This document shows positions 1,624-22,961 of a stretch of 64,000 bases of DNA, piece after piece (position 1 is the first letter of the stretch; each line of letters begins with the position of its first letter). The DNA comes from Verrucomicrobiaceae bacterium (GTDB lineage: Bacteria > Verrucomicrobiota > Verrucomicrobiia > Verrucomicrobiales > Verrucomicrobiaceae), in NCBI GenBank assembly GCA_019694165.1, contig JAIBCL010000001.1, forward strand, positions 124,001-188,000. Direction: 5' to 3'. The notes under the pieces are model-generated. The model was not told where the DNA came from and did no database searches. It worked only from the letters and a program-made list of their open reading frames with translations. Position numbers and translations under genes: made by a program.

Positions 1624-4600
1624 GCACAAAGACTGTCTTCATCAGCTACCGACGCGACTCGACGGGCAAGCTCTTTGGTCGGTCGATCAAGGAAGCTCTC
1701 ACCCATTTTGGATACGATGTGTTTCTCGATGTCGATCGCCTCGACGCGGGAAAGTGGGCCGCCCAAATCCTGACTCAAGTGCCGCTCCGGTCCCATTTCC
1801 TGTTGCTCCTCACACCGGGCTCTTTGGACCGCTGCGCGCAGGAGGACGATTGGGTCCGGAAGGAGTTGCTTGCTGCGATCCATTCCGGACGGAACATCGT
1901 TCCCGTTCGCGAAGAGTCGGTGAACTTGGACGAACTCAACACCTGCTGCCCGGAGTGCGTGAAGGCGCTCTTCGATTATCAGATTGCCACCGTCCAGCAC
2001 GCTGGATTTGAGTCGGACATCAAGATGCTGGTTGAGCGATTCATTCCTCCTCACAAAGCTCCGGCACCGAAAGCTGAATCAGCGGTTGCTATGCCGCACA
2101 CGGTTCCCGCCGACATCTCCCGCATCCTCCGCTACGCCCCCGCCGAACTCATCGGCCGCGAGTCAGACCTATCCGTCCTGTCCGTCGCATGGGAAAAAGT
2201 GCGCCATGCCACCACACCACGCCCCCACATCCTCACCTTCGTCGCGCTCGGAGGCGAGGGGAAAACCTCCCTCGTCGCCAAGTGGGCCGCCGAACTTGCC
2301 GCGCAGGACTGGCCCGGCTGCGACGCGGCGTTTGCGTGGAGCTTCTACAGCCAGGGCACGCGCGAGCAGATGGCTGCGTCGTCGGATTTGTTCTTGAAGG
2401 AAGCGCTGAACTTCTTCGCCCTCGACGACAAGGACCGCGAGTTTGCGGAGAGCAGCGCCGGCGCGTTCGAGAAAGGCCAGCGCCTCGCCCACCTCGTCGG
2501 CCAGCGGCGCAGCCTCCTCATCCTCGACGGCCTTGAGCCGCTGCAATACGCGCCCACCGCGCCCACGCCGGGCGAACTCAAGGACCAGGGCCTCGCCGCA
2601 CTGCTCAAAGGCCTGGCCGCCGCCAGCCACGGCCTGTGCGTCGTCACCACCCGGTATTCGCTGCCGGACCTGCGGGCCTTCTGGCAGTCCACCGCGCCGG
2701 AGGTGAAACTGCTGCGCCTCTCCCGCGACGCCGGCGTGCATCTGCTCAAAACCCTCGGCGTGCGCGGCACGGCGCAGGAATTCGCGGCGCTGGTCGAAGA
2801 CGTGAAAGGCCACGCCCTCACGCTGACCCTGCTGGGGAGCTACCTGACCGAATTCCACACCGGCGACATCCGCAAACGCGACCTCGTGAAGCTGGAGGTT
2901 GCGGACGAGGAAATCGAAGTCCTGCAAGACCACCCGCATCATGTGTTCAACGTCTTGGACGCGTATGTGAAGGAGTTCGAGGACGCCTCCTCTCCCCGGC
3001 CCTCTCCCCCATCACGAGATGGGGGAGAGGGTGGCCGCAGGCCGGGAGAGGGGGAGCGCGCCCAACGGATGCTCGCTCTCCTGCGACTCATGGGCCTGTT
3101 CGACCGCCCGGCGACCGCAGACTGTCTTGAGGCGCTTTGGAAGAAGCCCGCCATTCCCGGACTTACTGAACCGCTCGTCGAATTGAACGAGAGCCACCGC
3201 AACAGTGCACTCAAGCGATTGGAAGCCGCGAAGCTGCTCACGGTGAACCGCGACGCGGCCGGCGCGCTCGACTCGCTCGATGCGCATCCGCACCTGCGCG
3301 AATACTTCGCCCGGCAACTGCGCACGCAACAACCCGACGCCTGGCGCGCGGCCCACCGGCGGCTCTACGAACACCTCTGCGCGAGCACGAAGGAAGGCGA
3401 CCAACCAACGATCGAAGACCTCCAGCCGCTCTACCAAGCCGTGGCCCACGGCTGCCAGGCGGGGTTGCAGCAGGAGGCGTATGAGAAGGTGTATTTTGAG
3501 CGGATCAGAAGGCAGAACGAATACTATAGCGTGAGGAAGCTCGGCGCGTTCGGTGCTGATTTGGGAGCGATCGCTTGTTTCTTTGACGAGCCTTGGAAGC
3601 GAATCAGCCCTGCCTTGGAGAAGGAAAAGCAGGCATTGGTTTTTTCTCAGTCTGGCACTTGGCTGCGCGCTTTGGGGCGATTGAGAGAAGCTCTCGAACC
3701 AATGCGAACTTGCCTCGAAATTGGCGTGCATGAGAACGATTGGAAACGGTCTGCTATTCGCGCCAGCAACCTGAGCGAGCTGGAGCTGACGCTGGGCGAG
3801 GTGGCCGGGGCGGTGGGGGACGCCGAGCAGTCCGTGACCTACGCCGACCGCAGCGGCGATGCGTTTTGGAGGATGGGCACGCGCACGGCCCACGCCGACG
3901 CCCTGCACCAGGCGGGCCGCCGGGCCGGGGCGGAGACGCGCTTCCGCGAGGCCGAGCAAATGCAGAAGGAGAGGCAGCCCGCCTACCCGCTGCTCTACTC
4001 GCTGCAAGGCTTCCAGTATTGCGACCTGCTCCTCGCCGCCCCCGAGCGCGCCGCGTGGCAAAGTAGCCATCACGCTCCGCGTGATGAGCGGGGGACTGCC
4101 GTGACGGGGAACGCTGTCGATTCATCCAAACATGATCCTCATGCGGAAGCTGAGGCTCATCTCGCGGAGCGAGATGGCTACCTTGGGCGCTGCCGCGCCG
4201 TCTCCCAGCGCGCGGCGCAGACGCTCGATTGGTCGGTGAACGTCTTCAACTTCGGCCTGCTCTCCATCGCCCTCGACCACCTCACGCTGGGCCGCGCCGC
4301 GCTCTACGCGGCGATTCTGCAAGGTGGGGCGGGCAGTCCTCTGCCCGCCGCGGACGCCCTCGCGCCACCCGACGCTCCGCCACGTCCGGACGCCCAGCGG
4401 CGCGCGCGGAGCGACGCGCCCTACCTGGACACCGCCCTCGCGCCACCCGACTCTCCGCCACGTCCGGACACCCAGCGGCGCGCGCGGAGCGACGCGCCCT
4501 ACCTGGACACCGCCCGCCGCGAACTGGACGCCGCCGTCTCCGGCCTCCGCCGCGCCGGCACGACGCACCACATTCCCCTCGGCCTCCTCACCCGCGCCTG

Positions 4601-4910
4601 GCTGCGGTTTCTCACCGGCGCACGCACCGGCCCAGACAGCGCACAGGCGGACCTGGACGAAGCCTGGGAAATCGCCGAGCGCGGGCCGATGCGGCTGCAC
4701 ATGGCGGACGTGCTGCTGACGCGGGCGAGGTTGTTTGGAGTTCAGAGGACAGAGGTCAGGGATCAGAAGTCAGCGGCGGATGGGCAGAAGTATCCCTGGG
4801 AGTCGGCGGAGGCGGATTTGGCGGAGGCGGAGAGGTTGATCAAGCAGTGCGGCTACCACCGCCGCGACGAGGAACTGGCGGATGCGAAGCGGGCGCTGGG
4901 AGTGGGGTGA
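1620..4910 (+). CDS. TIR domain / STAND NTPase / TPR protein (bacterial NLR-like)
   Basis: 1,096 residues. Residues about 4-140 are a TIR domain (VFISYRRDSTGK at the start, FLDVDRLDAGKW, later WVRKELL with the candidate catalytic Glu). Residues about 185-420 form a STAND/NB-ARC-like NTPase: Walker A in ALGGEGKTSLVAKW, the family motif AWSFYSQGT, Walker B in SLLILDGLEPL, and VVTTRYSLPDL as sensor. After a winged-helix-like region, residues about 560-1090 are TPR-like helices. In known relatives TPRs sense a trigger, the NTPase oligomerises and TIR degrades NAD+ or makes a signal nucleotide, commonly in phage defence. That role is inferred here. The C-terminal half carries three low-complexity palindromic insertions, annotated separately. 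No partner gene is adjacent apart from the leader frame upstream. Confidence 0.85.
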   Translation: MSTKTVFISYRRDSTGKLFGRSIKEALTHFGYDVFLDVDRLDAGKWAAQILTQVPLRSHFLLLLTPGSLDRCAQEDDWVRKELLAAIHSGRNIVPVREESVNLDELNTCCPECVKALFDYQIATVQHAGFESDIKMLVERFIPPHKAPAPKAESAVAMPHTVPADISRILRYAPAELIGRESDLSVLSVAWEKVRHATTPRPHILTFVALGGEGKTSLVAKWAAELAAQDWPGCDAAFAWSFYSQGTREQMAASSDLFLKEALNFFALDDKDREFAESSAGAFEKGQRLAHLVGQRRSLLILDGLEPLQYAPTAPTPGELKDQGLAALLKGLAAASHGLCVVTTRYSLPDLRAFWQSTAPEVKLLRLSRDAGVHLLKTLGVRGTAQEFAALVEDVKGHALTLTLLGSYLTEFHTGDIRKRDLVKLEVADEEIEVLQDHPHHVFNVLDAYVKEFEDASSPRPSPPSRDGGEGGRRPGEGERAQRMLALLRLMGLFDRPATADCLEALWKKPAIPGLTEPLVELNESHRNSALKRLEAAKLLTVNRDAAGALDSLDAHPHLREYFARQLRTQQPDAWRAAHRRLYEHLCASTKEGDQPTIEDLQPLYQAVAHGCQAGLQQEAYEKVYFERIRRQNEYYSVRKLGAFGADLGAIACFFDEPWKRISPALEKEKQALVFSQSGTWLRALGRLREALEPMRTCLEIGVHENDWKRSAIRASNLSELELTLGEVAGAVGDAEQSVTYADRSGDAFWRMGTRTAHADALHQAGRRAGAETRFREAEQMQKERQPAYPLLYSLQGFQYCDLLLAAPERAAWQSSHHAPRDERGTAVTGNAVDSSKHDPHAEAEAHLAERDGYLGRCRAVSQRAAQTLDWSVNVFNFGLLSIALDHLTLGRAALYAAILQGGAGSPLPAADALAPPDAPPRPDAQRRARSDAPYLDTALAPPDSPPRPDTQRRARSDAPYLDTARRELDAAVSGLRRAGTTHHIPLGLLTRAWLRFLTGARTGPDSAQADLDEAWEIAERGPMRLHMADVLLTRARLFGVQRTEVRDQKSAADGQKYPWESAEADLAEAERLIKQCGYHRRDEELADAKRALGVG
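2988..3055. repeat. palindromic repeat element inserted in frame (element 1)
   Basis: A perfect 14-bp stem (3000-3013 with 3018-3031, loop ACGA) is framed by a second outer complementarity (CTCCCCGG near 2992, CCGGGAGAG near 3043). It is translated as a Ser/Pro/Arg/Gly-rich stretch unlike the flanking helices. Similar CCCTCTCCCC-type palindromes occur as dispersed repeats in many genomes. Here the element sits in coding sequence without breaking the frame. Confidence 0.75.
4060..4184. repeat. MITE-like element with 27-bp terminal inverted repeats, in frame (element 2)
   Basis: The ends 4063-4089 and 4155-4181 are inverted copies of each other differing at two positions. Each end is itself a perfect hairpin (ATCACGC/GCGTGAT with loop TCC, and ATCTCGC/GCGAGAT with loop GGA). 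The two differences are compensatory inside each hairpin, so stem structure is kept. The 125-bp unit is translated through as a His/Asp/Glu/Arg-rich segment in the TPR region of the TIR-STAND protein. Confidence 0.75.
4328..4511. repeat. hairpin plus 78-bp tandem duplication, in frame (element 3)
   Basis: A perfect 9-bp hairpin (4328-4336 with 4341-4349) precedes two tandem 78-bp units, 4356-4433 and 4434-4511, which differ at two positions. Each unit encodes 26 residues of a Pro/Arg/Ala-rich sequence ending PYLDT. The length is a multiple of three, so copy number can change without frameshift. The sequence looks like a dispersed high-GC repeat family rather than TPR coding sequence. Confidence 0.75.
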
Positions 4911-5190
4911 ATGGTGGGTTCGGAGGTGACCGGGGTCGTTGTTCACCACAGGGGCCGGGTTGTTCGCAACTTGTTCACAGAAATCGGGCGGCGTGACGGC
5001 GGGAGAACCACAACATCTTGTTTCAGCCCTCGAAGGAACGCCCAATATTTTGCGGTTTCGTGTTTTTTTGCTTGGCGGTTTGAGGGGCGGCGTGTTTAAC
5101 TCGCGACCTTCCGAAAATCGGTGGCGCATCCCGTTTCCGAGTCCGGCTCCGACACCAACCCAGCACTCTCCTTCCCCCCTTTCCCCGACC

Positions 5191-8100
5191 ATGTATCTCA
5201 AGACGCTGACCATCCACGGCTTCAAGTCCTTCGCGGACAAGACGCACTTTGAATTCCACCCCGGAGTGACCGGCATCGTGGGGCCGAACGGCTGCGGGAA
5301 ATCGAACGTGGTGGACGCGGTGCGCTGGGTGCTGGGTGAGACCTCCGCGAAGGCGCTGCGTGGCGACGAAATGGCGGACGTGATTTTCAACGGCACGGAC
5401 AAGCGCAAGCCGGTGGGCATGGCGGAGGTGCAGCTCACGTTTGGCGATTGCGAGCAGGCGCTCGGCGTGGACTACAACGAGGTGGCCATCTGTCGCCGCG
5501 TTTTCCGCGATGGTCGCTCGGAGTACCGTCTGAACGGGACGGTGTGCCGGCTGAAGGATTTCCAGGATTTGTTTGCCGGCACGGGCATCGGCCGCACGGC
5601 GTACTCGATCATGGCACAGGGGCAGATCGACATGCTGCTCAGCTCGAAGCCGGAGGACCGGCGCTCGGTGTTCGAGGAGGCGGCGGGCATCACGAAGTTC
5701 AAGTCGCAGAAGAAGGAGGCGCTGCGGAAGCTGGAGTTCACGGAGGCGAACCTGCTGCGCGTGGCGGACATCATCGCGGAGGTGAAGCGCCAGATGGGAT
5801 CGCTGCAAAGGCAGGCGGCCAAGGCGCGGCGTTATCAAAACTTCCTCGCTGATCTGCGGATGCTGGACACGCATCTGGCGCACAAGCACTGGCTGGATCT
5901 GAACGCGGAGAAATCGGAGTCGGAGACGCAGATTCGCACGCTGTCGCTGCAGCTCGACCAGCTCCAGCGCAGGCTGGCGGCGACGGAAAGCGAGACGAGC
6001 GAGACTCGCGAGGCCTACCACGCGGTGGAGAGCACGATCAATCAACTGCGCGGCCAGGCGCAGGAACTCCGCTCGCAAGTGCAGAGCGCGGAGGGCCGCA
6101 TCGGCTTCAATCGCGAACGTGCGGAGGAGCTGCAAATGCGCATCCAGCAGAATCGCGAGGACACGGACAAGAGCCGCGCGCTGCTCGATGATCAGCAGCG
6201 CGAGGTGGCGAGCGCGGACGAGCAGATCCGCGCGCTCTTCGCGAACATCGAAAGTCGCCAGCTCTCGCTGAACGAGCATCACGCGGTGCATCAGTCCATC
6301 GTGCCGGAGCGCACGGGCATCGAGTCGAACCGTCGCGCGATGCGCGAGCAGATTCGTGTGACGGAAGGCCAGATCGCCGCGGCGGAGGCGAAGATGCAGA
6401 GCCTCACGAATCAAATCTCGGCGGACCGCCAGCGGCACGAATCGCTGCAAAAAGACCGGCAGGCCGCGGCGCAGGCGCGCGAGACGAGCCAGGTGGAGTT
6501 TGACGAGCTGCAGCGCATGATTCACGAGGCGGAGGCGCAGCGGAACGAACTGGAAGAGAAGCTCAAGCAATGCGCCCGCGAGATCGTGGAGAAGCGCAAG
6601 CAGCGCGATGCGCTGGCCGACGAACTCAGCGAAATCCAGCGTGCAGCCACGCAACGCCGCTCGCGTCTCGAAGCGCTGGAGCAGCTTTTGCAAAAAGGCG
6701 AGGGCCTTGAGCAGGGCACGCAGCATGTGCTGCGCGGTCTGGACAATCCGGAGGTATACATGACCGGCGTGCGCGGCCTGCTGGCGTCGTCGATCGAAGT
6801 CGATCCGCAGTTCATTTCCGCAATCGAAGCCGCGTTGCGCGACAATTTGCAGGCGGTGCTGCTGGCGGATTCAGAACTCGCTTCGCAGATCGTCGATCGC
6901 CTCACGAGCCAGCAGCTCGGCAAGGCGGCGATCGTGCCGCAGGACTTCGTTTCACTGCGCGCCGCGCCGGATCGCCAGCTTCTGCCAGACGGCGCGATTG
7001 CGTGGGCGGTGGACAAGGTGAAGGCGGTGAACGGATCGCAATCGCTGGTCGATCATCTGCTGTGCAATGTTTTGATCGCCGAGGATCTGAACGCGGCCAT
7101 TCGCCTGAAGAAATCGCATCCCGATCTCGCGATCGCGACGATCAACGGTTCGCTCGTATCGACGGAAGGCGTGATCTTCGGCGGCGCGGGCAAGGAAGAG
7201 GCGGCATCGACGCTGCGCCGCGAAGCCGAGGTGCGCGGATTGCGCGGCGAGGTGGAGGCGCTGGAGCTTCAGCTTCACGAGAAGGAGGAACAGGTGCTGG
7301 CCATCCGCGCGCGGACCGAGGAGCAGCAGCACGAGGAGATCGCGCTGCGCGAGCAGAGCCAGCGTGCGCGCGAGGAATTCTCGCAGATGCAGGGCCAGGT
7401 GAGCGTGGTGCAGCGTGCGCTGCAGCAGGCGACGGCGAAGCTGGAGAGTTTTGACTGGGAGCAGGAGCAAATCGGCGGCCGCATGGCGGATGCCGAGGCG
7501 CAGATCGCCGCGCATCGCGAGACGATCGCCGCGGCGCAGCAGCAACTTGAAGCTGCCCGCGTGCGCGAAAGTGAGCTGGAGATCGAGATCGAAAACGTGA
7601 CGCGCCGCGAACTCGAATCACAGGAGCGGTTGAACGAATTGCGCACGGCGCTGGCGCTGGCGCAGAGTTCGCTGCAATCCGTCGAGCGCCAGAAGGCACC
7701 ACTCGCGATGCGCATCAGCGAACTGCAAAACGCGATCAACCGCTACGAGCAGGAAGTCGTGTCGTGGCAGCAGCGCGTCGAGACCGGGACTGCGGAGAAC
7801 GCGCGCCTCGGCGAGCAGATCGAGGAGCAGCGCTCGGCGGTCGGGCGCATCGAAGAAGAGCTGCAAATGCGGTCGAGTGATCGCGCGGCGGCGTTTGAAA
7901 AAGTCACCGCGCTGGAGAACCAGCTCACCGCATTGCGTCACCAGACCAGCGAGCTGAACGAATCACGCAGCCGCGCCGAAGTGCAGCTCACGCGTGTGGA
8001 TTTGCGCCTGGAGAACCTGAACAACCAGATCACCGAGCGGTACCAGATGCAGCTCGACGCCTTTGAGCCTGACCCGCATGAGCTGCTCCTCGCGATCAAC

Positions 8101-17943: not shown

Positions 17944-18115
17944 GGCAGGCTCATACGTTCGATCGACCTTGAGTCGTGCATCGTCAGAGGCATTGACACG
18001 GGTTCACGGAGCGCGGTAGCATCAGCCGAAATTCAGCAGAAAATTCCAGCGAACTTTTTCGCTGACGCGCGGCCCGCGTCGTGAGAAAGCACCGCCACCA
18101 CTCCATCTCCCGATC

Positions 18116-20080
18116 ATGAATGCTCCCGCACGCTCAGGTCTTCCCGCGTATCGCTATCTCCGAGGCTACGCGCTCGATCCCGGATTCTCCACGCGGCTCG
18201 ACACGGCTTCGATCAATGAAGTCACCTACCGCATCCCCTTTGAAAAACTCGACCCCGGACCGGCGGGCGAGTACGTGGAGGTGATCGACTTCGATCCCGC
18301 AAGCGGCTGCTGGTATGATCCTGTGGATCTCTCGGACGAGCGCATCGCCTCGCAGGGCGGACTCGCGCCGAGCGAGGGGAATCCGCAGTTTCACCAGCAG
18401 TTCGTCTATGCGGTGGCGATGAAGACCATCCGCCACTTCGAGCGCGCGCTGGGACGAAAGATCATCTGGTATCCGCGTGTGATGTGGAGCCGGAAACCAG
18501 GCGACGACGTCAAGGACGTGCGCTGGCCTCGCAAGTACGTCCACCGCCTCCGCATCCACCCGCACGCGATCCGGGAACCCAACGCCTACTACGATCCGGA
18601 GAAGAAGGCGGTTCTGTTCGGCTACTTCGATGCAGCGAACCAGTTCCAGGGCGCCAACTATCCCGGCGGACTGGTCTTCACCTGCCTGAGCCCCGACATT
18701 GTCGCGCACGAGATGACGCACGCGATTCTCGACTCCATCCACCACCGCTATCTGGAGGAGACCAATCCGGACGTGGCCGCCTTTCACGAGGGCTTCGCGG
18801 ACATCGTCGCGCTGCTGCAGCGTTTCACTTTCAATGAACTCGTCGAGCATCAGCTCTACGCCAGCGGCGGCCGCATGGACCGCTACACGGTGCTCGGCGA
18901 GCTGGCCACGCAGTTCGGCGAGGCGCTGGAGGGAAACCGCGGCGCGCTGCGCGGCATGATCGGCCGCTGGAATGAGAAGAACGAATGGGAGCCGCTCAAG
19001 CCCAGCCCGCACGACTATGTGAAAAACCTCGAGTGCCACGACCGCGGCGCGGTGCTCGTGGCCACGATCTTCGATGCCTTCCAGCGCATCTACACCTTCA
19101 AGACGCGCGACCTGCTGCGCATCGCCACGAGCGGCACCGGTGTGCTGCCCGAGGGCAGTGTGAGCCGCGACCTGGTGCACCGGCTCGCCGGCGAGGCGGG
19201 CGAGATCGCGGAGCACCTGCTGCACATCTGCATCCGCGCGCTGGACTACTGCCCGCCGAATGACATCACCTTCGGCAGTTACTTCCGCGCGCTGATCACC
19301 GCTGACCTCGACATTGCGCCCGAGGATGAAAACGGCTACCGCATCGCACTCATCGAGGCCATGCGCGCCCGCGGCATCTTCCCCGCGCGGGTGAACACGC
19401 TCTCCGTGGAGAGCCTGCGCTGGAGTTCCGTATCGTTCACCAAAAAGGAGCGCGATGCCATCGACTGGATCGCCGATCAGATGAAAAATGACATTCGCGC
19501 ACTGGTGGAGACTCCGGACCGCGAAGAACTCTACAAGCGCTCCCTCAAGGCACAGGCAAAACTTCACGCGCTGCTGATGGGAAAGCAGCAGGTGCTTCTC
19601 GGACCGGCTCAGTGGGAGAGTTTCCTCAACAAGCTGGGCATGACGTCCCTGCCCGTGTCGCAGCTCTTCGGCAAGAACTCGAAGAAGGTCCGCTTCCTAC
19701 TCCACGGCAAGCCGTTCAACAACTACACACCGGCCATTGAAGTCCACACGGTGCGCCCGGCCTTCCGCGCCGGGCGCGAGGGCCGGCAGATCGAGCAGGT
19801 CATCGTCACGCTCACGCAGCGCGTGACCGTGGACCTCGGCAAGGATGGTGAGCAGAAACGCATGATCTTCCGCGGCGGCTGCTCGCTCATTCTCAGCTTC
19901 GGCAGTCTGAACACAGTGGAGCACGTCGTGGTGAAGAACATCAAGAGCTACCGCCGCTTCCGCCAGCAGGCGGCCTACATGAGTGGCGGCGGTGCAGAGC
20001 CGTCCGCCGCCGCGACCTCCACCTACATCCGCCCGGCGCACGGACGTGAAATGGACTTTCGCCGCCTGCATCGTCACTGA
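18116..20080 (+). CDS. gluzincin metallopeptidase (thermolysin-like), paired with an MBL hydrolase
   Basis: 654 residues. The zinc site HEMTH is at residues 198-202, and EGFADI, equivalent to the thermolysin NEAISD motif, supplies the third ligand near residue 225. No signal peptide and no typical M4 propeptide are visible, so the enzyme is probably cytoplasmic, unlike secreted thermolysins. The N-terminal 190 residues and the C-terminal 200 (about 450-654) are unassigned. The end (LTQRVTVDLGKDGEQK ... FRGGCSLILSFG) may be a beta-rich domain. A metallo-beta-lactamase-fold gene follows after 25 bp, and the pair is probably one functional unit. Its substrate cannot be read from sequence. Confidence 0.8.
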   Translation: MNAPARSGLPAYRYLRGYALDPGFSTRLDTASINEVTYRIPFEKLDPGPAGEYVEVIDFDPASGCWYDPVDLSDERIASQGGLAPSEGNPQFHQQFVYAVAMKTIRHFERALGRKIIWYPRVMWSRKPGDDVKDVRWPRKYVHRLRIHPHAIREPNAYYDPEKKAVLFGYFDAANQFQGANYPGGLVFTCLSPDIVAHEMTHAILDSIHHRYLEETNPDVAAFHEGFADIVALLQRFTFNELVEHQLYASGGRMDRYTVLGELATQFGEALEGNRGALRGMIGRWNEKNEWEPLKPSPHDYVKNLECHDRGAVLVATIFDAFQRIYTFKTRDLLRIATSGTGVLPEGSVSRDLVHRLAGEAGEIAEHLLHICIRALDYCPPNDITFGSYFRALITADLDIAPEDENGYRIALIEAMRARGIFPARVNTLSVESLRWSSVSFTKKERDAIDWIADQMKNDIRALVETPDREELYKRSLKAQAKLHALLMGKQQVLLGPAQWESFLNKLGMTSLPVSQLFGKNSKKVRFLLHGKPFNNYTPAIEVHTVRPAFRAGREGRQIEQVIVTLTQRVTVDLGKDGEQKRMIFRGGCSLILSFGSLNTVEHVVVKNIKSYRRFRQQAAYMSGGGAEPSAAATSTYIRPAHGREMDFRRLHRH

Positions 20081-20105
20081 CCCTCACCCTCCATCCCCGC
20101 ACACC

Positions 20106-21530
20106 ATGCCTGCTCATGTGAAAGCCCGCATCACCATGTACCGCATGCAGGAGCTAGGAGACTGCTTCCTGCTCACCTTCACCGCCGGCCGCGACGTCAG
20201 CCGGATGTTGATCGACTGCGGCTGCTTCCGCAACAGCGGCAGTTCCATCGCGCGCATCAAGACCGTCGTCGCGGACATCAAGACCACGCTCGATGGCGCG
20301 CCGCTCGACGTGGTGGCCGGGACGCATCAGCACAATGATCATGTGAACGGCTTCTTCCATGCGGAGAAGGAGTTTCGCGACATCGGCGTGAAGCAGACGT
20401 TTCTCTCGTGGCTGGACAATCCCGAGGACAGGCGGGCGCAGGAGGTGGGAGACAAGTTTCACAATCTCAGGAAGCAGATCGTTCAGATTCGGGACGGGCT
20501 GCACAAGAAGCTGCGCGGCGCCAGGAACGCTGCCACGCGCGGCACGGAGGCTTTCCAGCTCTTGGACGGCCTGCTCGGTTTCTTTGGCGCGCAGAAGAAC
20601 GCGGACGGCCCGCCTGAAGTGCCGGCCAAAGGCATCGGAGTGCTGAAGAAGATCGGCACGGTGAAGCCGGAGTATTTGAAGCCTGGACGCAGCCTCGACA
20701 TGCCCGGGTTGCCAGCCGGCACGGTGCGCATCCATGTCCTCGGACCGCCTCGCGAGACCGAGCTTCTCTACCGCAAGGATCCGCGCGAAGGCGAGAGCTA
20801 CGACCGCGAACTCGCGGCCGCCAGCCTGCACGCAGACAGATTCCTCTCCGCCGTCGCAGGCAAAAGCGACGGCTCCTCACGCCAGGAGGACAACTACCCC
20901 TTCAACGCCGAATTCAAACGCACCCGGCCCGCAAGCGGCTCGGCGCTGGCGCGGGTGATGAAACGCTATCGCCACACGGGGGAATCATGGCGCACCATCG
21001 ACGAAGACTGGATGGACCAGGCTGGCGCGCTCGCGCTTTATCTCGACACGTACACGAACAACTCCAGCCTCGCCCTCGCCATCGAACTGGTCGCCAGCAG
21101 GAAGGTGCTGCTTTTCGCAGCCGATGCACAGACGGGCAACTGGCTGAGTTGGAAGAATGTGAAATGGGATGATCCGAAGGTCACCACCGACAGCCTCATC
21201 GAGCGCACCGTCTTCTACAAAGCAGGCCATCACGCCAGCCACAACGCCACGCTGCCCGAAGTTTTCGACAAGATGAACCATCCCGACCTCGTCGCACTCA
21301 TCCCGGTGGACAAATCGGACCCCAACATCAAAAAGGACGACGGTTGGAAAATGCCTGCGGAACACTTGTTCGAGCACCTGAAAAAGCAGACCAGCAACCG
21401 CGTGCTCCAGATGGACGACCGCAACCCTCCAGAGTGCAATCCGGACAAGGCGGCGAAGGGCGCGTGGAAGAAGGTCGGCATCAAGCCCAAGGTTACGGAC
21501 CTTTCGATCACGCTCGACATCAAAGGCTGA
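20106..21530 (+). CDS. metallo-beta-lactamase-fold hydrolase (ComEC-like MBL domain)
   Basis: 474 residues from ATG 20106 (MPAHVKARITMYRMQELGD); the open frame begins inside the preceding gene. The opening YRMQELGDCFLLTF, LIDCG, and metal motif THQHNDHVNG (H74, H76, D78, H79) are typical of the MBL subfamily related to ComEC C-terminal domains. A second site is FYKAGHHASHNATLP. The insert at about residues 110-260 has no clear match. Such proteins hydrolyse phosphodiester or nucleotide substrates, and several members sit in defence or conflict operons, but the reaction here is unknown. It is coupled to the peptidase gene and converges on the DUF1501 gene with 15 bp between stops. Confidence 0.82.
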   Translation: MPAHVKARITMYRMQELGDCFLLTFTAGRDVSRMLIDCGCFRNSGSSIARIKTVVADIKTTLDGAPLDVVAGTHQHNDHVNGFFHAEKEFRDIGVKQTFLSWLDNPEDRRAQEVGDKFHNLRKQIVQIRDGLHKKLRGARNAATRGTEAFQLLDGLLGFFGAQKNADGPPEVPAKGIGVLKKIGTVKPEYLKPGRSLDMPGLPAGTVRIHVLGPPRETELLYRKDPREGESYDRELAAASLHADRFLSAVAGKSDGSSRQEDNYPFNAEFKRTRPASGSALARVMKRYRHTGESWRTIDEDWMDQAGALALYLDTYTNNSSLALAIELVASRKVLLFAADAQTGNWLSWKNVKWDDPKVTTDSLIERTVFYKAGHHASHNATLPEVFDKMNHPDLVALIPVDKSDPNIKKDDGWKMPAEHLFEHLKKQTSNRVLQMDDRNPPECNPDKAAKGAWKKVGIKPKVTDLSITLDIKG

Positions 21531-21545
21531 CGCGATGCCAAGCCG

Positions 21546-22961
21546 TCACGCCAGCACGCCCTTCACGATCTCGCCGTGGATGTCGGTGAGGCGGTAGTCG
21601 CGGCCTTGGAAGCGATAGGTCAGTCGCATGTGATCGATGCCCATCAGGTGCAAAGCCGTCGCGTTGAGATCGTGGATATGCACGGGGTCCTTCACGATGT
21701 TGTAGCTGAAGTCGTCGGTCTCGCCGTGAACGTGGCCTTTGCGGACGCCTGCACCGGCCATCCAGAGGCTGTAGCAGCGCGGGTGATGATCGCGGCCGTA
21801 GTTGTCCTTCGTCAGCACGCCCTGCGAATACACGGTGCGGCCAAACTCGCCGCCCCAGATAATGAGCGTGTCGTCCATCATGCCGCGCTCCTTGAGTTCA
21901 GCCATCAGCGCAGCCGTGGGTTGGTCGGTATCGTGGCACTGGCTCTTGATGCCGCTGGGCAGGTTGTTGTGCTGGTCCCAGCCACGATGATAGAGCTGGA
22001 TGAAACGCACACCGCGCTCGGCGAGCCGGCGCGCGAGGATGCAGTTCGCCGCATACGTGCCGGGCTTCTTCGACTCGGGACCGTAGCGATCGTAGATGTC
22101 CGCGCGTTCCTTCGACAGGTCGGCCAGTTCAGGCACCGCCGACTGCATGCGGAACGCCATCTCGTATTGATCAATGCGCGCCAGCGTCTCGGGATCGTGA
22201 TGCGACTCGAGCTTCATGCGGTTCAAGGCAACCACATCGTCGAGCATCGCACGGCGGCGCTCGGTGGTGATGCCCGGCGGATTCGAGAGGAACAACACGG
22301 GGTCCTTGCCCGAGCTGAAGCGCACGCCCTGATACTTCGACGGCAGGAAACCCGCGCCCCACATGCGTTCGTGCAACGGCTGTGCGTTCGTCGGTCCGCT
22401 CGGTCGCGAGATGAGTGCGACGAAGGCCGGCAGATCCGAGTTCTCCGAGCCGAGGCCATACGACACCCAGGCACCGAACGCAGGCCGACCGCCAATTTGA
22501 TGGCCCGTTTGCAGCAGCGTCATCGCAGGATCGTGATTGATCGCCTCCGTGTGCAGCGTGCGGATCAAGCAGATCTCATCCGCGAACTTCGAGGTGTGCG
22601 GCATCAGCTCGCTCAGCCACATGCCGCTCTGGCCGTGCTGCTGAAACTTGAACACGGACGGCGCGATCGGAAACCGCTTCTGCCCCGCCGTCATGCCCGT
22701 GAGCCGTTGTTCGCCGCGCACCGAGTTCGGCAAGTCCTTGTCGAACTGCGAGGCGAGCCCCGGCTTGTAATCGAAGAGATCGAGCTGCGACGGCGCACCC
22801 GCCTGCGTCAGCCAGATGATGCGCTTCGCTTTCGGCGCAAAGTGCGGTGACTGCGCGGAAGCGAAGAGCTTCGGATTGATCAGCGACGCCAGCGCCACTC
22901 CGCCGATGCCTTTGAGCAAGGTGCGACGGGTTGATTCGAGGGCATGCGGCGGGGTAACCAT
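21546..22961 (-). CDS. DUF1501 family Tat-exported protein (sulfatase-like fold)
   Basis: 471 residues. A twin-arginine signal (TRRTLLKGIGGVALASL) is followed by IIWLTQAGAPSQLDLFDYKP and later DDTLIIWGGEFGRTVYSQ and GRDHHPRCYSLWMAGAGV, the DUF1501 landmarks. The family is abundant in Planctomycetes and Verrucomicrobia and is normally encoded directly beside a DUF1549/DUF1553 cytochrome protein; the pair is thought to act on carbohydrate or sulfated substrates in the periplasm. Here the partner is missing: divergent lptD lies on one side and the MBL gene on the other. The start includes an N-terminal MVTPPHALES, short for a Tat leader but acceptable. Confidence 0.9.
   Translation of the reverse strand: MVTPPHALESTRRTLLKGIGGVALASLINPKLFASAQSPHFAPKAKRIIWLTQAGAPSQLDLFDYKPGLASQFDKDLPNSVRGEQRLTGMTAGQKRFPIAPSVFKFQQHGQSGMWLSELMPHTSKFADEICLIRTLHTEAINHDPAMTLLQTGHQIGGRPAFGAWVSYGLGSENSDLPAFVALISRPSGPTNAQPLHERMWGAGFLPSKYQGVRFSSGKDPVLFLSNPPGITTERRRAMLDDVVALNRMKLESHHDPETLARIDQYEMAFRMQSAVPELADLSKERADIYDRYGPESKKPGTYAANCILARRLAERGVRFIQLYHRGWDQHNNLPSGIKSQCHDTDQPTAALMAELKERGMMDDTLIIWGGEFGRTVYSQGVLTKDNYGRDHHPRCYSLWMAGAGVRKGHVHGETDDFSYNIVKDPVHIHDLNATALHLMGIDHMRLTYRFQGRDYRLTDIHGEIVKGVLA

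Follow-up and report, generated by a model that had tools for sequence, protein, structure and literature searches.

A gluzincin gene paired with a ComEC-type metallo-beta-lactamase gene in a Verrucomicrobiaceae bacterium: a possible protease-activated nuclease module

INTRODUCTION

Nucleases of the metallo-beta-lactamase (MBL) fold with two insertions that block the active site are proenzymes, as described in the main text of Tuck et al. 2025 (PMC12799240). They are activated when cut by a partner trypsin (Hachiman and AVAST) or via a caspase (Canu), after which they degrade DNA, not RNA, and bring about defence (PMC12799240). The cut sites mapped in HamM (I118/I218) and the Avs1a sites (I134/I234) are 100 residues apart in each protein. 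Here, we analyze a gene pair from a Verrucomicrobiaceae bacterium (GenBank assembly GCA_019694165.1) found in a stretch of 64,000 nucleotides (contig JAIBCL010000001.1, positions 124,001 to 188,000 of the forward strand; hereinafter, the window), in which the gene of a cytoplasmic gluzincin, a zinc metalloprotease, is followed by that of an MBL-fold hydrolase related to ComEC.

In work on conflict systems, passages of PMC7159879 mention rare metallopeptidase effectors and those of PMC8195603 inactive zincin-like domains. No report of a metalloprotease paired with a gated MBL was found in our literature searches (subscription papers and preprints were outside their scope), and the terms "metalloprotease," "thermolysin," and "peptidase" have 0 occurrences in the main text of PMC12799240. 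However, the same text mentions, with reference to its fig. S2, that homologues of the nucleases are also found together with proteases from "other diverse families," so the pair described here may already be part of that supplement.

RESULTS

A conserved pair of genes

The gluzincin gene (18116..20080, forward strand, start MNAPARSGLPAYRYLRGYALDP) codes for a protein of 654 amino acids, and the MBL gene (20106..21530, forward strand, ATG start at 20106) for one of 474. Neither frame is interrupted in the genome record. The gluzincin stop at 20080 and the MBL start are separated by 25 bp, the distance given by an initial annotation made from the sequence alone, and a longer GTG start of the MBL in the list of open reading frames (19983) falls within the gluzincin gene.

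A scan of a genome collection with the gluzincin recovered 17 loci, from records of Acidobacteria, Bacteroidota, Glaciecola, Glacieibacterium, Planctomycetaceae, and a PVC bacterium, and in all of them (17/17) an MBL gene lies just downstream, in the same order. The window's own genome holds a second, diverged pair (L027), with a gluzincin 47% and an MBL 39% identical in the genome search. Given the same order in every relative and this second place in the same genome, the pairing goes beyond chance. Plasmid records gave a similar picture: among the best 40 of 74 gluzincin records, the 24 that cover at least 80% of the protein all have the MBL downstream (24/24), at less than 400 bp in 22 and about 1.6 kb in 2, among the matches listed. 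The latter are two Rhizobium plasmids (NZ_CP149878.1, 1674397-1675987; NZ_CP148092.1, 435228-436818), in which an insertion between the two genes is possible. Conversely, 35 of the 37 plasmid MBL records also have a gluzincin match, counted against the best 40 of the 74 gluzincin records; the other two are E 0.9 matches whose accessions are absent among the 40 gluzincin rows listed of 74.

The gluzincin gene precedes the MBL gene in each of the 39 pairs that were measured, and in 36 of these the two overlap or are no more than 25 bp apart. The distance matrices of the two proteins (38 pairs) are correlated with an r of 0.89, a value that none of 5,000 permutations reached (0/5000); this shows coinheritance, not interaction. 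The initial annotation had regarded random neighbours in relatives as the outcome that would speak against a system. Such chance neighbours can be rejected by the constant pairing in genome-collection loci and plasmid records, and the gluzincin-MBL pair is a real module. There seems to be no further constant member: apart from the pair, only three gene clusters are shared, each by 2 of the 17 loci, and a conserved third gene was rejected on these grounds.

The gluzincin

Sequence conservation was assessed in alignments of 19 gluzincin relatives and 19 MBL sequences and in wider sets of 39; L008 (gene ending at the contig edge) was left out of the gluzincin sets and L071 (MBL match split in two pieces across two annotated genes) out of the sequence sets. 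The zinc motif HEMTH (residues 198-202, 18707..18721) conforms to HExxH in 39/39 sequences, and the third zinc ligand, E225 (18788..18790), located 27 residues past H198, is likewise kept in 39/39. H198, E199, H202, E225, and H308 (19037..19039) are invariant in all 19 aligned relatives. By eye, we propose H308 as the counterpart of thermolysin His231.

The predicted structure (predicted local distance difference test [pLDDT] score, 82.8) resembles M4 and M36 peptidases over residues 9-433 (18140..19414). The match to the M36 fungalysin 7z6t has a Z score of 23.7 (root mean square deviation [rmsd], 4.3; 323 aligned residues; 12% identity) and that to thermolysin 1kei one of 19.2 (rmsd, 4.7; 281 aligned residues), while Foldseek gave a single match at E < 0.001, 3nqz_B (all other rows, with E ≥ 0.23 and probability ≤ 0.14, were disregarded). 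With an HExxH motif, a downstream glutamate, and an M4/M36-like fold, the window protein is a gluzincin, a member of clan MA(E). The thermolysin-like character proposed in the initial annotation thus holds at the level of the fold. Residues 440-654 (19433..20077), predicted as helices followed by four strands and a conserved tail, gave no usable fold match; weak NTF2-like rows (E ≥ 0.85) were not used. This C-terminal domain is proposed to be a regulatory or docking part. A tblastn search of plasmids with that domain from L032 recovered 22 records, every one of which is also a gluzincin record.

None of the 19 gluzincins has a hydrophobic stretch within the first 45 residues (simple Kyte-Doolittle test), and therefore no signal peptide is visible, in agreement with the initial annotation, for which a secretion signal would have spoken against a conflict role. 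The same crude test was positive in one of the 19 MBLs (L023). A secreted nutritional protease was rejected, as neither signal peptide nor propeptide was seen. The lack of a named family was likewise borne out: the gluzincin has no PADLOC match and no Pfam or NCBIfam family over the cut-off, with Pfam M4 (PF01447) at 12.5 bits versus a gathering cut-off of 22.4.

In four of the 21 plasmid stretches, the gluzincin is found inside longer proteins annotated as S8 peptidases (L031, 6270-9830; L032, 6717-9815; L070, 6150-9860; L071, 6504-9839). Two of these (L031 and L032) were tested, and both carry a subtilase domain ahead of the gluzincin.

The MBL hydrolase and its two insertions

The metal-binding residues of the MBL protein are located in the motif HQHNDH (residues 74-79, 20325..20342), at D340 (21123..21125; a metal ligand by position), and in the motif GHH (residues 374-376, 21225..21233). 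H74, H76, D78, H79, D340, H375, and H376 are invariant in 19/19 sequences. Pfam Lactamase_B scores 16.3 bits, below its cut-off of 22.7. The best structural match of the predicted model (pLDDT, 80.7) is the MBL domain of ComEC, 9ic4 (Z score, 23.0; rmsd, 2.8; 255/266 residues aligned), and ComEC ranks first both in Foldseek and in VIA-align, which upholds at the fold level the ComEC-type label of the initial annotation.

The window MBL has a ComEC-type fold with invariant metal-binding residues, plus two low-confidence insertions absent from ComEC, which make up most of the residues outside the aligned part. Insertion 1 (about residues 121-170, 20466..20615) has a mean pLDDT of 50 to 68 per ten-residue block, and insertion 2 (about residues 231-310, 20796..21035) falls below 50 at residues 244-277 and 279-282; we propose both as gating elements. 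Each includes a conserved spot. In insertion 1, it is F159-G161 (20580..20588; F in 29/39 sequences and G in 30/39), a candidate first cut region. In insertion 2, it is P265-F266 (20898..20903; P in 39/39 and F in 34/39), a candidate cleavage site that sits in a stretch with a pLDDT of about 37. F159 and F266 are 107 residues apart, compared with 100 for the paired sites of HamM and Avs1a.

Motif spacing sets these proteins apart from ComEC. The distance from HxHxDH to LGPP is 131 residues in the window MBL and 116 to 152 across the 19 aligned sequences, and that from LGPP to NNxSL is 107 and 97 to 131, respectively. In a bona fide Avs1a (L039; 428 bits versus the NCBIfam cut-off of 420), whose partner gene codes for a Trypsin_2 protein with weak NACHT/AAA matches, the distances are 116 and 70, so that the two insertions of the window protein are placed as in this homologue. 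In two ComEC domains, they are 62 to 67 and 12, a thin control because the MBL domain was measurable in just these two of the 10 ComEC loci. Pattern matching did not yield the first spacing in 3/20 plasmid MBLs and the second in 5/20, and L041 could not be measured in this way either.

Comparison with defence profiles pointed in the same direction. PADLOC gave weak matches of the window MBL to LmuA (4.8e-11) and Avs1a, and NCBIfam to Avs1a (2.2e-7) and 6A-MBL. Among the 19 MBLs, the PADLOC models matched were LmuA (PDLC03854) in 19, RTasMBL (DRT-associated MBL) in 15, Avs1a in 12, and PDC-M48B in 12. A profile of the family matched three Avs1a-like MBLs with an E value of 5.9e-17 over 312 columns, versus 0.001 over 79 columns for the ComEC control, which is thin and may be divergent. 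One MBL (L040) has a caspase as its partner gene.

Genes beside the pair

Genes of conflict type, recognized by product name, are found in 13 of the 21 annotated plasmid stretches. The names counted were SIR2, DUF1837, CBASS or SAVED, ThiF or multiubiquitin, caspase, CHAT, Mov34/MPN, restriction endonuclease, DNA methylase, and toxin-antitoxin, a list compiled after the pair stretches had been seen. In two of them (L035 and L066), DUF1837 and DEAD-helicase genes come directly after the pair; PADLOC recognized HamA in both and HamB in L066 (the L035 helicase lay outside the scan). In two Hymenobacter plasmids (L065 and L068), an LmuB-like ATPase gene is located directly upstream of the pair (2.2e-20 and 3.9e-24), and a CBASS cyclase gene and ThiF genes are found beside some relatives. 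A patatin gene immediately adjoins the pair in 5/21 plasmid stretches (L035, L066, L067, L074, and L075) and also in two (L013 and L014) of ten genome loci scanned for neighbours; the same ten loci include a SLATT_2 gene in L009 and a YhcG nuclease near the pair in L012.

Distribution and mobility

The pair is patchily distributed. The MBL was found in only 1 of 288 genomes of a phylum sample, the window's own, and the gluzincin query matched four, two of them over only ~100 residues and one (G143) being a caspase-linked relative. Among 28 other relatives, G405 alone matched the gluzincin, and only partially. The closest relative found (74%) comes from an Acidobacteria bin, and plasmid copies occur in Rhizobium, Agrobacterium, Hymenobacter, Deinococcus, and others. 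The GC content of the pair matches its surroundings, so there is no foreign signal. An empty site could not be demonstrated, because the squalene-hopene-cyclase-like gene that flanks the pair is found in relatives in a differing gene order. The other flank, a DUF1501 gene (window positions 21546-22961), has 61 family matches in the window's genome at E ≤ 1e-50 and is therefore useless for this purpose. Upstream of the gluzincin, there is a weak promoter-like TTGACA-18-TAGCAT (17993..18022, forward strand; 1 found versus 0.4 expected).

A viral origin was rejected: viral contigs, when scanned, contained no MBL relative and, for the gluzincin, no more than 6 distant matches at the zinc site (24 to 31% identity). 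Both genes are present in one of 50,697 phage records, MT836994.1 (9.5 kb, labelled Bacteriophage sp.), where positions 2937-5880 contain a gluzincin (40%) and then an MBL (28%), in the order of the window.

DISCUSSION

A possible protease-gated nuclease

The initial annotation had proposed an uncharacterized two-gene protease-MBL system, perhaps a conflict effector, and the constant pairing (17/17), together with the matches of the MBL to defence models, supports this. The mechanism considered here goes beyond that proposal and starts from the MBL, whose two insertions are laid out as in the pro-nucleases gated by proteolysis that the main text of PMC12799240 describes. By analogy with them, we find it somewhat probable that the gluzincin cleaves the gates and frees the nuclease for abortive antiphage defence, the two genes acting as a mobile module. 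The MBL would be a ComEC-type nuclease in which two inserted loops, lying on or close to the active site, block activity. Given this layout, and a protease as the constant partner of the MBL, we infer that the gluzincin opens the gate, cutting the loops in the cytoplasm once infection is sensed. The cuts would probably fall at the conserved Pro-Phe of insertion 2 and near Phe159 in insertion 1. Thermolysin-type enzymes cut before bulky hydrophobic residues, which makes a cut between Pro and Phe plausible. The freed nuclease would then degrade DNA, and the infected cell would cease to support the phage. Where the two genes stand alone, the C-terminal domain of the gluzincin itself may detect the trigger, and elsewhere a neighbour may do so, such as the LmuB-like ATPase of the two Hymenobacter plasmids. 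The idea of a proenzyme that is cleaved, acts as a DNase, and confers defence is extrapolated throughout from the nucleases treated in the main text of PMC12799240.

Several observations weigh against this reading. In the window, the flanking genes are FtsW, the squalene-hopene-cyclase-like gene, DUF1501, and an LptD-like gene, with no island, and no defence gene was recognized beside either this copy or the second one (L027). Conflict-type genes were found in 6/9 pair stretches versus 3/9 control stretches (lying opposite the pair on each of the first nine plasmids, with Shedu, toxin-antitoxin, and restriction endonuclease genes), a difference that is not significant (~0.17). The window MBL reaches only 30 bits on the NCBIfam Avs1a model versus a cut-off of 420. 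The residues conserved here (P-F and F159/G161) differ from those at the established cut sites, which are Ile or Gly rather than Phe, and F266 is missing in 5/39 MBLs (L033, L034, L037, L038, and L076). The low pLDDT of the insertions may be in part a product of the shallow 19-sequence alignment. Finally, two gluzincin relatives (L028, 6662-8608, and L087, 1186-3378; 44% and 36% in the genome search) are encoded directly downstream of a C14-caspase protein gene, and no MBL neighbour was found for them. As these relatives are paired with a caspase-domain protein, the gluzincin can have partners other than MBLs.

The caspase-linked relatives also fit a conflict module of two independent effectors. 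In such a module, the protease would act on proteins of the cell or the phage and the MBL would attack nucleic acid or another substrate, without mutual activation, and the genes found next to the pair (for patatin, DUF2235, subtilisin, and endonuclease proteins) do resemble effector collections. We consider this arrangement unlikely, since such MBLs occur rarely, if ever, without the gluzincin (35/37 plasmid MBL records, among the gluzincin matches listed) and it is difficult to account for two long insertions with a conserved dipeptide if they are not cleaved. Some of the same neighbours could instead indicate effectors injected into, or released against, rival cells as type VI or contractile-injection cargo: DUF2235 genes are present in 5/21 annotated plasmid stretches (L032, L033, L037, L069, and L077), and cell-wall hydrolase, amidase, GH25, or peptidoglycan-binding genes lie near the pairs of L009, L070, L071, and L074. 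However, no immunity-like third gene recurs, no injection gene name appears in the 21 annotated stretches, and the PADLOC relatives of the MBL are intracellular defence proteins, all of which makes this role quite improbable.

The substrate of the MBL, gated or not, might be RNA, a small molecule, or a lipid rather than DNA, given that phosphorylcholine esterase (Z score, 20.6) and RNase J (Z score, 16) follow ComEC (Z score, 23.0) in the structure list. We give this little credence, as ComEC comes first in both structural searches and the defence relatives cut DNA and not RNA in the account of PMC12799240. A housekeeping pair for processing or stress, with no link to conflict, would suit the ordinary flanking genes of the window and the GC content. 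Its patchy occurrence (MBL in 1/288 phylum genomes and a partial gluzincin in 1/28 relatives), the best relative in an Acidobacteria bin, and the many plasmid-borne copies render such a function highly improbable.

Trypsin-like proteases and caspases are the activators of pro-nucleases reported so far (main text of PMC12799240). A metalloprotease version, if the gated-nuclease reading is true, would show that unrelated proteases were recruited to one type of gated nuclease. It would also add a compact module present in several phyla and on conjugative plasmids and give a function to pairs now annotated as "hypothetical protein" and "MBL fold metallo-hydrolase." A broader proposal, which we put forward only tentatively and regard as rather doubtful, is that gluzincins would be a third, independent protease class recruited to gated MBL nucleases, forming a minimal two-gene defence in which the protease senses infection via its own C-terminal domain, and that members of this protease family serve as exchangeable triggers in other settings too, namely in subtilisin fusions and together with LmuB-like ATPases or caspase partners.

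Comparison with known systems

The gluzincin shares its fold and HExxH...E site with thermolysin (M4) and fungalysin (M36). Unlike these peptidases, it has no signal peptide or propeptide, carries an extra C-terminal domain, and stays below the Pfam cut-off. The pair does not match AVAST type 1, given the Avs1a score mentioned above and the absence of a trypsin-STAND gene beside it among the window open reading frames. As for Lamassu, its LmuA model matches the MBL in 19/19 sequences and an LmuB-like ATPase gene adjoins the pair in L065 and L068; however, no LmuB-like gene flanks the window pair, and the partner here is a metalloprotease. Canu (CanABC), as presented in the main text of PMC12799240, has a caspase where the window pair has a metalloprotease, and the window pair consists of two genes, with no CanB-like gene recognized; the two systems share a protease gene upstream of the MBL gene and dual insertions in the MBL.

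The pair also resembles the gated MBL pro-nucleases with a trypsin-like protease (HamM/HamA, Avs1a/Avs1b, and the Lamassu and DRT versions), as far as the main text of PMC12799240 describes them. The window pair differs from them in its protease, which is neither trypsin-like nor a caspase but an M4/M36-like gluzincin encoded upstream and usually standalone, in the conserved Pro-Phe that takes the place of Ile in the insertion, and in having no core defence enzyme in the window. In common with them, it has a ComEC-type MBL with two insertions in the same places, a separate protease gene adjoining it, and recurrent transfer between systems.

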